Position numbers and translations under genes: made by a program
NCBI GenBank assembly: GCA_029194535.1
Contig: JARFXR010000001.1
Coordinates: 682,001 to 746,000 of the forward strand
Reading direction: 5' to 3'
Source: Nitrospira sp.
GTDB lineage: Bacteria > Nitrospirota > Nitrospiria > Nitrospirales > Nitrospiraceae
DNA: 64,000 bases
In this document: in pieces, positions 25,131 through 31,133 of the stretch
How the letters are laid out: each line of letters starts with the position of its first letter
How positions within the stretch are numbered: the stretch's first letter is position 1
The notes under the pieces: generated by a model
What the model was told of the DNA's origin: nothing
Database searches by the model: none
The model's input: the letters and a program-made list of their open reading frames with translations, nothing else

Positions 25131-25904
25131 CTACTCGGATTCGGAGGAGGCGGGCAATGCTTGGAGTGCCCACGCTTTCAGGCGGGCGAGGTTGGCGTCT
25201 GAAGGATCGACGAACTGGATCTCGGAGGTATTCATACCTTCCTCGGAAGGCTGAGCCGACCCGACGGGACCCACGCCGCTGCTCAGCACCTTTCCGTGAA
25301 TGGTCAGCGGAGTGTTCTGACCCGGCAAGGAAAACGCGAGCACCACTCGGCTCTTTGCCGCGATGTGCGTCTTCGAGCGCACCGATGAGCCGAGATGGCT
25401 CAATTGCGAAATGACGGCATTGTGCGCGTGCTGGACGGTGGGATCGTCTCCCATTATGGTGATGACCGTCGGGATCTGCGTCGCTCGGCGGGGGGGCGTG
25501 AGCATCAAGTTGTGAGCGGTCAGCACTCCCACCGGCTGGTTCTGCTTCGTCACGATGAGCACCGACGCTCCGGTTGCGACCATGATGGTTGCGGCCTCAT
25601 CGAGCGCCTCGTCATATTCAATGAACTGAACCGGACGGGTCATGATGGTTCGCACTTCGATCTCATGCGGCTCGAGCCCTTGGGCCACGACTTTCTTGAC
25701 GATGTCGTGCGGCGTCATGACGCCGAATCGGGCATCCGTATCCTTGACGAGGAGACAGGGAGCCTGCTCCCGTTCCAGCATCAATGCCGCCTCGCTCACG
25801 GACACATCGCCTGGAACTTGCACGACTCCTGGTGTCATCATATGCGCGACCACGATTGGTTGGGTTGATAGTTGTTTCGGAGGTTGTTCTTCGGGGCCGG
25901 GCAT
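25131..25904 (-). CDS. CBS-pair protein with PilZ-like C-terminal domain
   Basis: The protein is about 257 residues. Residues about 20-145 hold two CBS motifs (MMTPGVVQVPGDVSVSEA, then MTRPVQFIEYDEALDEA), which usually bind adenosyl nucleotides. Residues about 165-250 resemble a PilZ domain (SKTHIAAKSRVVLAFSLPG), but the Arg-x-x-x-Arg c-di-GMP motif is not clear, so nucleotide binding there is doubtful. ATG 25904 has the GAGAGGGTGG Shine-Dalgarno and lies downstream of a likely -10 box TATACT (25977-25972), which makes a start at 26021 unlikely. It probably links a nucleotide signal to motility or surface behaviour; partner unknown. Confidence 0.6.
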   Translation of the reverse strand: MPGPEEQPPKQLSTQPIVVAHMMTPGVVQVPGDVSVSEAALMLEREQAPCLLVKDTDARFGVMTPHDIVKKVVAQGLEPHEIEVRTIMTRPVQFIEYDEALDEAATIMVATGASVLIVTKQNQPVGVLTAHNLMLTPPRRATQIPTVITIMGDDPTVQHAHNAVISQLSHLGSSVRSKTHIAAKSRVVLAFSLPGQNTPLTIHGKVLSSGVGPVGSAQPSEEGMNTSEIQFVDPSDANLARLKAWALQALPASSESE

Positions 25905-26014
25905 CGCCCACCACCCTCTCTTGAGCCGTCCTGCGCGATTCGTGAGGGCGTCTACCCGTCGGCGTAGGCCAAGTATAGCAGACGGGTTCTCCCCATCGGA
26001 TCCATGGACTTGCC

Positions 26015-26044
26015 TTGTCAAACCATCGCTTCAGAGACTAGACT
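26015..26044 (+). promoter_or_regulatory. Promoter of the MNIO operon
   Basis: TTGTCA (26015-26020), an 18-nt spacer and TAGACT (26039-26044). The -10 ends directly at the palindromic operator candidate that follows, so the start point falls inside that palindrome. Confidence 0.55.
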
Positions 26045-26061
26045 AGGACAAAATTTGTCCT
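26045..26061. promoter_or_regulatory. Perfect 17-nt palindrome, candidate operator of the MNIO gene
   Basis: AGGACAAA-A-TTTGTCCT: two perfect 8-bp arms around one base, starting right after the -10 box and covering about +1 to +11 of the predicted transcript, 18 nt before the DUF692/MNIO start codon. A repressor bound here would block initiation. The cognate factor is not identified. Confidence 0.6.
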
Positions 26062-26079
26062 GCTGGCAAGACCGCCCCG

Positions 26080-27576
26080 ATGGTTTCCACGTATTTCCCA
26101 CAGAGAGAATTCGAACGCCGCGTCGATCGGATTCCGGGTCTGGGTCTCGGTTTGTCGGTGGATTGCTACAGCCCCGATCTCTTTGCGCTTCTTGATGCCC
26201 TGGCCTGTTGTGATCTCCGGCCGGCCTACCTCGAACTGTTCCAGGCCACGACCGGCAGGCTCGAATCGGTTCGACGCCGGTTGCCGGCCATGCCGTTGGC
26301 CTATCACGGTGAAGGGCTCTGGGTCACGCAACCGGATTTTCCCGAATCTCCGCATCTCGGGGCAAGACTGGACGAGACCGTCCGGCAACTCCGCAGCATT
26401 CGGAGCCACTGGCTGAACCACGAATGTGCCGCCAAGGAGATGGGAGGGGTCGCCTTCGGGACCTATCTCCCACCTCTATATACGGCGACGAGCGCCGACG
26501 TGGTGGCGGACAACATCACCCTGGTACAGCGCGAGCTGGATCTGAATTGGCAGACGTCCTCGGAAGACCCCCCTATGTTTCTGCTGGAGATGGCTCCCCT
26601 GACCTACTTTTGTGCCGGCGACCTGGGAGTTCCACAATTCTTTCGGAGGGTGACGGACAGTGTCGCATGCGGTCTCGTGCTCGACATCGGGCATCTCTGG
26701 ACGGTGTACCACTATGGAAGAGACGGGCGGCATCTGTCGCTGGAACAATTCGTCCAACAATTTCTCAACGAGTTTCCACTCGAGCGGGTGGTGGAAATCC
26801 ATGTAGCCGGATTGGCGGAACAGGACGCGGATACCCTCGGCAACGCGGCCGTGGCGCATCCTGCGTGGATCGATGCCCACGACGCGCCGATCCCGCCAGT
26901 GCTGTGGGACCTGCTCGAACAGACACTGGCCCATCCTAAGCTCCGCCACCTTCGAGCTGTCGCCTTGGAAGTGGACAACAAGGCCGTGGCCGTAATTGCG
27001 GACGAGTTTCGCCGGGCCGATCGTCGATTCCATCATGAGATCGCGCGTCTGACGGCTCAGGGCCCTCGCTCGCCGGGGCAGGTCGGCAGACCGGCGGATC
27101 GGACCGTTTCTCCACCCGGCGTGACGCAACAGGAACGAGATGGATTGCAGACGCAATATGTTCGCTACGCGAAAATCGCTTCTGGCCAGGTGAGCCCCTC
27201 CGGGGCGGAGTGGCAGGCGGTGCAGGAGGACGGCACCGGATTGGCGCGATACGTAACCAGCTATCTGCCAAATGAAATTCTTCGATGGGGCGGTGAACTG
27301 ACGGCCATGTTCCCGGACACTTGCCGGAAACTTGCGCAGCGCGGCACCGCGCTTGACGAATTCGTGCCCTGGTGGTTTCGCGACGTCCGGGTCGTCGCTG
27401 AGCCGTACGATTTCTTTCTCCTCAAGATCGCGCGGTTCCTCGAATTCGTGCGCGAGCGCGCTCCGCAGCTGTGGCCGCTCGCCGATCGGGAAGCCAAGGA
27501 GCTGCGGTCGGCCTATGCAGATGCGAACGAACATCGGTCGCCGTCCGTCGAGACGAATGGGGAGATGAGTCGATGA
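26080..27576 (+). CDS. DUF692 (MNIO, multinuclear non-haem iron oxidase family) protein with fused C-terminal helical domain
   Basis: Residues about 15-310 form the TIM-barrel of DUF692/MNIO enzymes such as MbnB and TglH, which oxidise cysteine residues in peptides. Candidate iron ligands in family order are H76 (YHGEGL), H114/E115, E170 (LLEM), D202 and H205 (LDIGH), H241 (EIHVAG), D265/H267 (WIDAHDAPIP) and E297 (ALEVD). After a Pro/Gln linker (320-355), residues about 358-480 form a helical domain with FPDTCRKLAQ and an aromatic FVPWWFR segment that resembles the separate partner proteins (DUF2063 type) of these enzymes. No precursor-peptide gene is seen nearby. Its stop overlaps the dus start (ATGA). 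Family is clear; the partner-like reading of the tail is inference. Confidence 0.75.
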   Translation: MVSTYFPQREFERRVDRIPGLGLGLSVDCYSPDLFALLDALACCDLRPAYLELFQATTGRLESVRRRLPAMPLAYHGEGLWVTQPDFPESPHLGARLDETVRQLRSIRSHWLNHECAAKEMGGVAFGTYLPPLYTATSADVVADNITLVQRELDLNWQTSSEDPPMFLLEMAPLTYFCAGDLGVPQFFRRVTDSVACGLVLDIGHLWTVYHYGRDGRHLSLEQFVQQFLNEFPLERVVEIHVAGLAEQDADTLGNAAVAHPAWIDAHDAPIPPVLWDLLEQTLAHPKLRHLRAVALEVDNKAVAVIADEFRRADRRFHHEIARLTAQGPRSPGQVGRPADRTVSPPGVTQQERDGLQTQYVRYAKIASGQVSPSGAEWQAVQEDGTGLARYVTSYLPNEILRWGGELTAMFPDTCRKLAQRGTALDEFVPWWFRDVRVVAEPYDFFLLKIARFLEFVRERAPQLWPLADREAKELRSAYADANEHRSPSVETNGEMSR

Positions 27577-28766
27577 GTTTTTGGCGGGCCTTGCCGCGCC
27601 CGATTCTGGGACTTTCTCCGATGGACGGCGTGACCGATGCTGTCTTTCGTCACGTGGTCGCGGCACATGGGAGGCCGGATGTCTTCTATACCGAGTTTAC
27701 GCACATCCATGACGTCTGCCGAGGGCCGGAATTCCTGCTCGATTCGTTGATATACGGCGAGCTGGAACGGCCGATTGTGGCGCAACTCTACGGCAAGGAT
27801 CCGGACCTGTTCTATCAGGCGGCCCATGTCGTCTGCGAGCTGGGGTTCGACGGATTGGACATCAACATGGGGTGCCCGTCGCGCAATGTCGCGTCGTCCG
27901 GTTCCGGCGCCGGGCTGATCAAGACTCCTGATCTCGCCCACAGCGTGATGCGCGCGGCCCGCCGAGGCATCGAGGATTGGGCGGCCGGTCAGTCCTTGGA
28001 ATCTGCCGGGATCAGGCTGGCGCGGGCCGAGGCCATTCATCGACTAAACGACCGGCGTCGGACCGCTTCCACAATCGAACGCCGACCCATTCCCTTATCC
28101 GTCAAGACACGACTCGGCTATGACGCCGTCATTGTGGACAGTTGGATCGAGCATCTGCTGCTCGAGCGTCCGGCCGTGATCTCGCTGCACGGACGGACGT
28201 TGCAACAGATGTATCGGGGAGAGGCCGACTGGCATGCCATTGCACGGGCTGCCGACGTGGTGCGGGGCACCGATACGCTGCTGTTCGGAAACGGCGATGT
28301 GCAGAGTCTCGCGGAGGCGGTACGTCGGATTCGGGAGACGGGAGTGGACGGGGTGCTGATCGGCCGGGCCGCCTTGGGAGCGCCGTGGTTCTTCTGCGAG
28401 AAGGAGGCGGCCCGTCGCGCAAGCCGCGCGATCGACGCCGATCCTGAGTCCGCGCAGCAGCCGTGGACTCCCGCTCTCCCTGTGCGGTTCGACATCATGC
28501 TCGAGCATGCCAGATGCTTCGAACGGCGGTGGGGCACAGATCGCTTCCGACGAATGCGCAAACATCTCGGGTGGTATTGTAAGGGGTTTCCCCGCGCCGC
28601 CGCGCTCAGAGCCGCCATGTTCCAAGTCTCTTCCGTCGCCGATGTCGAAGCTGCCCTCGCGGCCTATCACGCTCGAACCCTTGCCGCTCGGTCCTGCAGT
28701 CTTGACGTTCTCGCCGACGAGACCGCGGTCGAAGACCCGGCTTCTCTGGCTTCCCGATGCGGGTAG
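27573..28766 (+). CDS. dus: tRNA-dihydrouridine synthase
   Basis: The 397-residue flavoprotein starts SPMDGVTDAVFR (family SPMxGxTD), then DGLDINMGCPSRNV with the catalytic-loop cysteine region, SVKTRLGYD, SLHGRTLQQMYRGEADW, and GNGDVQSL plus GVLIGRAALGAPW for FMN phosphate. All are Dus hallmarks. An insertion of about 30 residues (SLESAGIRLARAEAIHRLNDR region, written in part) is unusual for the family. ATG 27573 overlaps the stop of the MNIO gene by four bases, so translation is coupled. It reduces uridine to dihydrouridine in tRNA D-loops. Confidence 0.88.
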   Translation: MSFWRALPRPILGLSPMDGVTDAVFRHVVAAHGRPDVFYTEFTHIHDVCRGPEFLLDSLIYGELERPIVAQLYGKDPDLFYQAAHVVCELGFDGLDINMGCPSRNVASSGSGAGLIKTPDLAHSVMRAARRGIEDWAAGQSLESAGIRLARAEAIHRLNDRRRTASTIERRPIPLSVKTRLGYDAVIVDSWIEHLLLERPAVISLHGRTLQQMYRGEADWHAIARAADVVRGTDTLLFGNGDVQSLAEAVRRIRETGVDGVLIGRAALGAPWFFCEKEAARRASRAIDADPESAQQPWTPALPVRFDIMLEHARCFERRWGTDRFRRMRKHLGWYCKGFPRAAALRAAMFQVSSVADVEAALAAYHARTLAARSCSLDVLADETAVEDPASLASRCG

Positions 28767-29392
28767 TCCTCGCATCCACCTCACCCAGACGCCGCACGTT
28801 GCTTGCCGTGTTGGGCCTGACCTTCGAGGTTCGACATCCCGTCTGCGACGAGCGAATCATCGCCGGCCGAACGGCGCAGGAGCTGGCCTCCTCCTTCGCG
28901 CAGCAGAAGGCGCACTCCGTTGCCGCGGTCGATCCGGAAGCCGTCGTCATCGGGAGCGATACGCTGATCGAGTTGGAGGGGACGGTACTCGGCAAGCCGG
29001 TAGACTTGGACGATGCGCGCCGCACACTGCGTACTTTGGCGGGACGCAGGCATCAGGTGCACACCGCCGTGGCGGTCGTAGCTCTGAGGCGAGCGTTCGA
29101 CAAGACGCGGCTCGCCACAGCACAGATCCACATGAAACCATACGATGCGCGGGCGCATGACCGGTATCTGGCCACAGGCGACAGTTTGGGCAAGGCCGGC
29201 GCCTATTCCATTCAGGGCGCGGGCAGAGATCTGATCGAATCGCTCAACGGCGATTTCACTACGGTGGTTGGGCTTCCGCTGCGCCTGCTCCACCGTCTAT
29301 TGACGCAGGCCGGCGTGTTTGTCCCAGCGGAGATCGAGCAAGTGTATCGGCAGAAGCCTTACGAAAACTGGGCGAAGATGTCGCCCGAGTAG
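28757..29392 (+). CDS. maf: Maf-like nucleoside triphosphate pyrophosphatase
   Basis: The 211-residue protein has the Maf signature at the N-terminus (LASTSPRRRTLL), then VIGSDTLIELEG with the catalytic Asp region and GKPVDLDDARRTLRTLAGRRHQVHT in part. AYSIQGAGRDLIESLNGDFTTVVGLPL is the C-terminal Maf block. The family hydrolyses dTTP/UTP or modified nucleotides. The gene overlaps dus by 10 nt. Three genes, MNIO-dus-maf, therefore form one operon. Confidence 0.88.
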   Translation: MRVVLASTSPRRRTLLAVLGLTFEVRHPVCDERIIAGRTAQELASSFAQQKAHSVAAVDPEAVVIGSDTLIELEGTVLGKPVDLDDARRTLRTLAGRRHQVHTAVAVVALRRAFDKTRLATAQIHMKPYDARAHDRYLATGDSLGKAGAYSIQGAGRDLIESLNGDFTTVVGLPLRLLHRLLTQAGVFVPAEIEQVYRQKPYENWAKMSPE

Positions 29393-29453: not shown

Positions 29454-29489
29454 GCCGGCTCTTATTCGCTATAGTTTGTGGAGGGTCTC

Positions 29490-30146
29490 ATGGCAGCTCG
29501 AGGATGGGGAGAGGGACTGAAACTGACCGCTTTCGCCTGCATGATCCTGGTCGGCGCCGCACCGGCCTGGTCCATCGACGTGAAACTCTCGATGGAGGAG
29601 GCTCAAAGGGCTCTCGAAGCGGGCCGCACACCCATGGACAAGGCGAACTCCCCTGAGGAAGTCAAGAAAGTACTCCAGCAGGCGTCAACAGCGACACGGG
29701 TCGGGGCCGATCCGGAAAAGGACCCCTGCGGGGCAAGCGCGGTGCTTCGGACGAAGCGGTATCGGCTGGAAGCGTTCGGCCGCCAAGAGGCATCGGAATC
29801 GAAGAAGCGAAAAACGGAGATCCGCATGCCGGAGGAGTTCATCAAGAAGGTCGTCGACATGCCGAATATGGAAGTCGAAGTGCAGCTATGCGGCGATGAC
29901 GAGTACTTCGCCGAAGACGCGACCATTGAACTTCAGCAGGGCTCCAAACGGATTAAGCCCGTTCTTCCGGTCGGCAAGGCCGATCGCGGGAGAAAGAACG
30001 AAGGCAACGGGCCGGCCTATCGGGCACGGTTCACCGCGGTGTTTTCTTACGAGAGTTTTGATCCCACTGCCGCTTCGGTGTTCGTCGTCAATCTTCAAGA
30101 CGGCAAAGAAGCGAAAATCAACGCGGACTTCTCCAAGGTCAAGTAG
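29490..30146 (+). CDS. Exported protein of unknown function
   Basis: The protein is about 218 residues. A signal peptide (LTAFACMILVGAAPAWS) is followed by a helical segment rich in Glu/Ala/Lys and then a beta-rich C-terminal part ending FVVNLQDGKEAKINADFSKVK (written in part here as FVVNLQDGKEA). Two cysteines in the mature part (KDPCGAS and VQLCGDD) could pair. ATG 29490 has GTGGAGGG just upstream and lies behind a good promoter. No family is recognised. It stands alone between maf and a convergent CBS gene. Confidence 0.6.
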   Translation: MAARGWGEGLKLTAFACMILVGAAPAWSIDVKLSMEEAQRALEAGRTPMDKANSPEEVKKVLQQASTATRVGADPEKDPCGASAVLRTKRYRLEAFGRQEASESKKRKTEIRMPEEFIKKVVDMPNMEVEVQLCGDDEYFAEDATIELQQGSKRIKPVLPVGKADRGRKNEGNGPAYRARFTAVFSYESFDPTAASVFVVNLQDGKEAKINADFSKVK

Positions 30147-30405: not shown

Positions 30406-30789
30406 TCAGAAGACGTCGATGGCCACCGGCTGAAGGAAATCTCGTACGGACACCACACCGACGATGGCACCTGCCTTCGTCAGGCCCAGATGGCGGGTGC
30501 GGTGCTTGTTCATCACCTCCGCTGCCTCCGTAATCGGCTGGCGCGCCTCAATGCCCAGCACAGGACTGCTCACGATCGATTCGACCGGAGTGAAGTATGC
30601 AATCCGCTCGGACCCGAGGAACTTCCTTACGATGTCCGATTCGGTCACGATGCCGACGATCCGAACTCTGTGAGAGACGAGAACGCTACCCGCGTTGCAG
30701 GCCTTTATCAGCTTGGCCGATTCAACGACAGAGGTGCCCGTGTCAACGGTGGCGAGATCCTGTTTCATCAACTGTCCGACGGGCACCAT
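30406..30789 (-). CDS. CBS-domain protein
   Basis: The protein is about 127 residues and consists of one CBS pair: MKQDLATVDTGTSVVESAK, GIVTESDIVRKFLG, then SSPVLGIEARQPITEAAEVM and GVVSVRDFL. Such small proteins often sense adenosyl nucleotides and regulate a partner. ATG 30789 has an excellent AAGGAGG nine bases upstream; upstream codons rich in His/Ser are not part of the protein. The next gene on the left is convergent, separated by 259 nt with no recognisable gene. Confidence 0.75.
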   Translation of the reverse strand: MVPVGQLMKQDLATVDTGTSVVESAKLIKACNAGSVLVSHRVRIVGIVTESDIVRKFLGSERIAYFTPVESIVSSPVLGIEARQPITEAAEVMNKHRTRHLGLTKAGAIVGVVSVRDFLQPVAIDVF

Positions 30790-31133
30790 CGTTGAGTGCC
30801 TCCTTGGTGACCATGATGATTGATCATGTGATTGGCCTGAGGTATAGCTCGAGACTGTTGCCGCGTGATGGTGCGTCAATTACGCAAGCGTATATCATCG
30901 AGGGTCAATCTGTTATCTGGAGGTCCTGGAGCCGGATCCTGAACCGTAGGCATCCTGCGTGAGGAAAGTACTCAGGTTTCTGGGTGGAACTGCAATTAGG
31001 ACGCCCATCGCTACGGATCAATTAACCTTCCGTTGGCCCAGGCTTTACTCGGATGTAACCCTCGTGTGCGACGCTTGTCATATACGAACGGTGAACTACC
31101 TCGGCCAGACTCGGTGGGACAAGAAGGAGGAGA
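30790..31133. other. Divergent intergenic region, 344 bases, no gene seen
   Basis: It separates the minus-strand CBS gene from the plus-strand membrane protein. The left end holds the CBS gene's AAGGAGG; the right end holds AAGGAGGAG before 31134. TGATTGATCATGTGATTG near 30818-30835 contains short inverted TGATCA/CAT elements. I find no convincing -35/-10 pair on either strand and no coding pattern. Confidence 0.4.

Follow-up and report, generated by a model that had tools for sequence, protein, structure and literature searches.

A widely kept Nitrospirales protein joins a divergent MNIO-superfamily barrel and a helical domain in one chain

Analysis of the window, i.e. the whole 64-kb stretch of Nitrospira sp. 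DNA under study, indicated that a gene coding for a fused MNIO-superfamily protein lies behind a predicted promoter and is followed by three genes of the same orientation. The features of the locus, in window positions, are the following:

26015..26044, plus strand: predicted sigma-70-type promoter found by scan, with -35 TTGTCA, a spacer of 18 and -10 TAGACT
26045..26061, no strand assigned: 17-nt palindrome AGGACAAA-A-TTTGTCCT, situated directly behind the promoter where transcription is predicted to start
26080..27576, plus strand: fused MNIO-superfamily protein of 498 aa plus stop, called from PF05114, full-length homologues and the AlphaFold2 model
26140..27057, plus strand: MNIO TIM barrel, residues about 21-326, called from fold comparison and ligand columns
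27058..27126, plus strand: variable linker, residues about 327-349, poorly conserved and of low pLDDT near 331-340
27127..27528, plus strand: all-helical C-terminal domain, residues 350-483, called from the AlphaFold2 model, with no Pfam match
27573..28766, plus strand: dus, tRNA-dihydrouridine synthase (PF01207, 7.9e-55, and synteny), which at its start shares 4 nt with the MNIO stop
28757..29392, plus strand: maf, nucleotide pyrophosphatase family (PF02545, 2e-51, and synteny), with a 10-nt overlap with dus
29478..30146, plus strand: putative secreted protein of 222 aa, with no Pfam match and with two invariant Cys

Two CBS-domain proteins belonging to one family (blastp cluster) are encoded on the minus strand at 25131-26021 and 30406-30879 and flank the MNIO-dus-maf genes.

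The open reading frame 26080-27576 encodes a divergent member of the MNIO superfamily. Its product matched PF05114, the MbnB/TglH/ChrH family, over residues 56-313 (4.7e-17; 62.5 bits against a cut-off of 25), and the MNIO-type enzyme that an earlier note had read in the N-terminal part was thereby recovered with a family profile. PF05114 was also matched by the other fused proteins tested, and the profile search of the 3.98-Mb genome identified this gene as its only member; the same genome yielded no further MNIO and no DUF2063, TIGR04222 or DUF2282 gene. The NCBIfam MNIO models matched 58/58 fused proteins scanned. The best NCBIfam matches of the 498-aa protein were BufB, ApyH and HvfB, all far under their equivalog cut-offs; the BufB model NF050167 gave 53 bits against a curated cut-off of 310, well outside the bufferin maturases. 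No paper that mentions Nitrospira along with MNIO or DUF692 came out of a literature search.

The AlphaFold2 model, for which the window protein was aligned with 57 homologues taken from contigs of named genomes, showed pLDDT 90 and pTM 0.90 for the whole chain, from which the two domains are predicted to hold a fixed relative position. In this model the N-terminal part is an MbnB/TglH-like TIM barrel. Comparison of the predicted barrel (residues 9-323) with known structures revealed that TglH 8hi7_B is the nearest (VIA-align Z 25.9, rmsd 2.9 over 267 residues), with MbnB 7dz9_A at Z 24.9 and rmsd 2.4 over 257 residues, the MbnB structures 7dz9, 7fc0 and 7tcr together at Z 23-25, and the DUF692 structure 3bww at Z 20.9. 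Isomerase-type enzymes, sugar isomerases and AP endonucleases followed below 3bww, at Z 16.6 and below. The rows of the whole-chain search were dominated by the barrel. A helical C-terminal domain, placed by the earlier note at about residues 358-480, is indeed present in the model as helices 350-483, with pLDDT mostly above 90, and the protein is a barrel with a built-in helical domain in one chain.

Metal-ligand residues were mapped by MAFFT alignment with canonical MNIOs and by HMM alignment of the proteins of f21, a second family of the phylum, to TglH, whose ligand positions were taken from PMC10880893. The six likely iron ligands already listed in the earlier note (H76, E170, D202, H205, H241 and E297) were invariant in all homologues and so were D265 and H267, which its list did not include. 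Alignment with the nine TglH ligands (H71, H107, E151, D184, N187, H216, D229, H231 and E258) indicated that seven are kept, His71 corresponding to H76, Glu151 to E170, Asp184 to D202, His216 to H241, Asp229 to D265, His231 to H267 and Glu258 to E297. The MAFFT column of E170 was shifted by one, and it is the TglH HMM alignment that pairs E170 with Glu151. The remaining two positions are occupied by other residues, E115 in place of the site-1 His (His107) and H205 in place of the site-3 Asn (Asn187). Both E115 and H205 were invariant in 97/97 fused sequences, while the canonical MNIOs carried His and Asn in 24/24 (17 Nitrospirota MNIOs and 7 plasmid MNIOs). H114, which adjoins E115, is Gln in four sequences, and this speaks for E115 rather than H114 at the His107 position. 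These two substitutions had been overlooked in the earlier note.

Judged by alignment, the lack of two canonical ligands marks the protein as a divergent MNIO member. In MbnB the substrate thiolate is bound at site 1, which has two His (PMC13419390), and loss of the site-3 Asn abolishes the activity of HvfB (PMC13419390). Given these roles, the aligned E115 and H205 substitutions suggest altered chemistry or metal use and, as both the site-1 His and the site-3 Asn are replaced, the Cys chemistry typical of MNIOs may not apply.

The C-terminal domain carries the motifs YLPxEILxWGGxLxxMFP and YDFFLLK, largely common to f21, and its Nitrospirales and f21 versions aligned with an hhalign probability of 99%. 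The earlier note had proposed a DUF2063/MbnC-type partner, an identity for which the profile comparisons gave no signal. Searches of Pfam with 57 members of the domain produced no convincing match (two single-member matches at 0.05-0.08), the profile search of the PDB produced zero matches, and hhalign against 24 DUF2063 domains, run in local, global and relaxed modes, gave probabilities of 0.2-1.5%, while DUF2063 subsets compared with each other as positive controls gave 97.6-99.6%. A PME-type 1 partner of the DUF2063 kind is therefore not supported by sequence. As the domain matches neither a Pfam family nor the DUF2063 profile, the term partner domain is used here as an analogy. The domain may nonetheless be a partner, because the published PME-type 2 partners resemble DUF2063 in structure only (PMC12452194). 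By this analogy the fused helical domain probably does the job of the separate partner found elsewhere.

Matches to the fused protein were found in 154/197 genomes of the order Nitrospirales, mostly full length and nearly all in single copy, and the full-length copies showed 41-76% identity. The best 80 loci in named genomes came from Nitrospira or Nitrospirae/Nitrospirota records, two of whose titles say Nitrosospira. The same two-domain protein was present in f21 (A1 profile about 1e-79; hhalign 100% over 423 columns). The fusion, found across the order and in f21, is thus widely kept and not peculiar to one genome. Outside Nitrospirales and f21, no copy of the C-terminal domain was detected in a sample of 246 genomes; in the plasmid collection no record covered 80% of the query, the best matches being unfused MNIOs. 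Near-complete genomes of the order that carry no fused enzyme were those of genus g22 (family f3) and G121, which are useful in the search for co-lost substrates. The matches in G018, G029, G014, G080, G126 and others cross one stop codon; here the alignment probably overran the genuine stop codon close to the C-terminus, and a few of the copies are possibly broken.

Synteny places dus, maf and the gene for the putative secreted protein downstream of the MNIO gene in its own family. At this locus the reading frames overlap, and MNIO, dus and maf stand in an operon-like order. The earlier note had supposed the arrangement to be new, but it is common to nearly the whole family. In family f3 the fused MNIO gene is located downstream of two genes that on sequence inspection read as putative gltB and gltD, and in f21 it lies among other neighbours, so that the neighbours vary by family while the enzyme persists. 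The putative secreted 222-aa protein adjoins the MNIO gene group in 13/14 sampled loci of the own family and its invariant Cys lie in EKDxCG and CGDDEYFAE; since it contains no RiPP-like core and is not adjacent to the enzyme in f3 or f21, this conserved protein was set aside as a weak substrate candidate.

We also searched open reading frames of at least 70 aa in 16-kb stretches flanking the enzyme at 21 loci, as well as its flanks in f21, and no conserved small Cys-rich gene was found beside it. The Cys precursor gene that adjoins the enzyme in MNIO RiPP clusters was thus absent from all sampled loci, in agreement with the earlier reading of the window. DUF2282 bufferin precursors were detected in 10/60 genomes of the own family. 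Canonical MNIOs are sporadic in the order and the class, other Nitrospira included, and a DUF2063-like gene accompanied them in 17/17 loci read; because it is the canonical MNIO that adjoins DUF2063, the DUF2282 precursors show no tie to the fused enzyme. The canonical Nitrospirota loci L152-L163 and L181-L186 carry the DUF2063 partner, some of them also DUF2282/DoxX-like genes, and are scattered among species. At another canonical locus (L164, family f3), a small protein with repeated Cys/Gly/Lys motifs (GQCHGVNDCKGNGECKGSGHACEGKNECKGKG) is encoded roughly 0.5 kb upstream of the MNIO gene and resembles an oxazolin-type precursor.

Comparison with the nearest known systems showed that the fused protein resembles the Pseudomonas syringae 3-thiaglutamate synthase pair TglH-TglI (8hi7) in its TIM-barrel fold (Z 25.9) and in 7/9 iron ligands at aligned positions, but TglI is a separate protein, TglH carries His107 and Asn187 where the fused protein has Glu115 and His205, and the precursor TglA is known (PMC10880893). 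The methanobactin pair MbnB-MbnC is likewise similar in the barrel fold (Z 23-25) and differs in its separate partner, its Cys precursor MbnA and the two His of site 1 (PMC13419390). BufB-BufC of the bufferin operon (DUF2282, DUF692, DUF2063, DoxX) belongs to the same superfamily and includes the best NCBIfam match, while it is unfused and has a linked precursor, a DUF2063 partner and the canonical ligands. MovX of Vibrio and ChrH are, like the fused protein, single-chain MNIOs with an added domain, but both work in RiPP biosynthesis, and the added domain of MovX is a winged-helix RRE (PMC12452194, PMC13419390), that of the fused protein being all-helical and without a family match.

Taken together, the reading we favour, with a probability of about 0.45, is that of a divergent MNIO-superfamily enzyme that stands alone as a single chain and would oxidise an unlinked substrate. 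The TIM barrel would bind a multinuclear cluster, presumably of iron, with a changed ligand set, in which site 1 would be formed by His76, Glu115 and Glu170, site 2 by Glu170, Asp202, His241 and Glu297, and site 3 by Asp202, His205, Asp265 and His267. By comparison with MbnB, TglH and HvfB, the cluster may drive an oxidation of the substrate by O2. The helical domain of its own, the two changed ligands and the lack of a precursor gene point to a substrate, most likely some conserved protein or peptide, whose gene probably lies at another place in the genome. The fused domain is predicted to pack on the barrel, where it would probably keep the substrate in position and modulate the cluster. That an MNIO can have its partner built in is plausible, because high activity has been found for an engineered HvfB-HvfC fusion and the active iron state depends on HvfC (PMC13419390). 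Somewhat more tentatively, short of even odds, the fused proteins of Nitrospira and the second family would constitute a separate MNIO class, with a rebuilt metal site and a new helical domain, which carries out a core, non-RiPP oxidation of an unlinked substrate.

The main rival to a protein or peptide substrate in trans is an MNIO-derived housekeeping enzyme for a small molecule or nucleotide, whose trinuclear site would be nearer to that of endonuclease IV and related isomerase-fold enzymes. The housekeeping-like distribution, the neighbours (dus, maf and gltBD-like genes) and the missing precursor gene are consistent with it, the fold is also akin to AP endonucleases and sugar isomerases, and His182 of endonuclease IV is presumably a site-3 His, as is H205 here. 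Both sequence and fold are nevertheless clearly nearest to the MNIOs, and the Pfam scan of the 498-aa protein matched no AP-endonuclease or isomerase family, which leaves this alternative unlikely, although not negligible. Less probable still is an ordinary RiPP maturase of bufferin or oxazolin type whose precursor is unlinked in the genome. BufB is the best NCBIfam match and sizeable proportions of bufferin precursors are unlinked to MNIO genes (PMC12452194), but the low BufB score, the lack of DUF2282 and TIGR04222 genes in the genome and the ligand changes throughout the fused sequences argue against it.

The palindrome itself is perfect and well positioned at the predicted start, with 8-bp arms. 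In shuffles of the intergenic region a palindrome with 8-bp arms and spacer 0-1 occurred in 0.6%; the window contains four palindromes of that class against about two expected, so that the palindrome alone is weak evidence. Alignment of 28 relatives revealed that the -35 hexamer was conserved at 100% and the -10 at 89-100%, while most positions of the right arm were conserved at 14-39%. Of the genus, seven genomes were compared; the 15-bp core was perfect in 2/7 (exact in G078) and changed at one position in a third (G098), and the rest failed the one-mismatch test; each of the three with a perfect or near-perfect core had a single site, at the MNIO promoter. The scan of the own genome at up to two mismatches found no stray site away from the promoter, but only this one site and no regulon. 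Neither conservation at orthologous promoters nor repetition in a regulon was observed, a conserved operator is not supported, and a lineage-specific site is conceivable. Tight control by one dimeric repressor bound at the transcription start, as proposed earlier, is improbable, given that the palindrome has a single genomic copy and has degenerated in sister genera whose promoter is intact, and that no regulator gene is conserved next to it.

To our knowledge, MNIO enzymes are found almost only within RiPP gene clusters that also encode a partner and a Cys precursor. An MNIO that is nearly universal, single-copy and cluster-free and has changed iron ligands suggests that the superfamily also takes part in core physiology. 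The fused protein is a natural variant in which the contributions of the partner and of two replaced residues, site-1 His and site-3 Asn, can be probed, and it would be one more conserved enzyme in Nitrospira, which is a main nitrite oxidiser.
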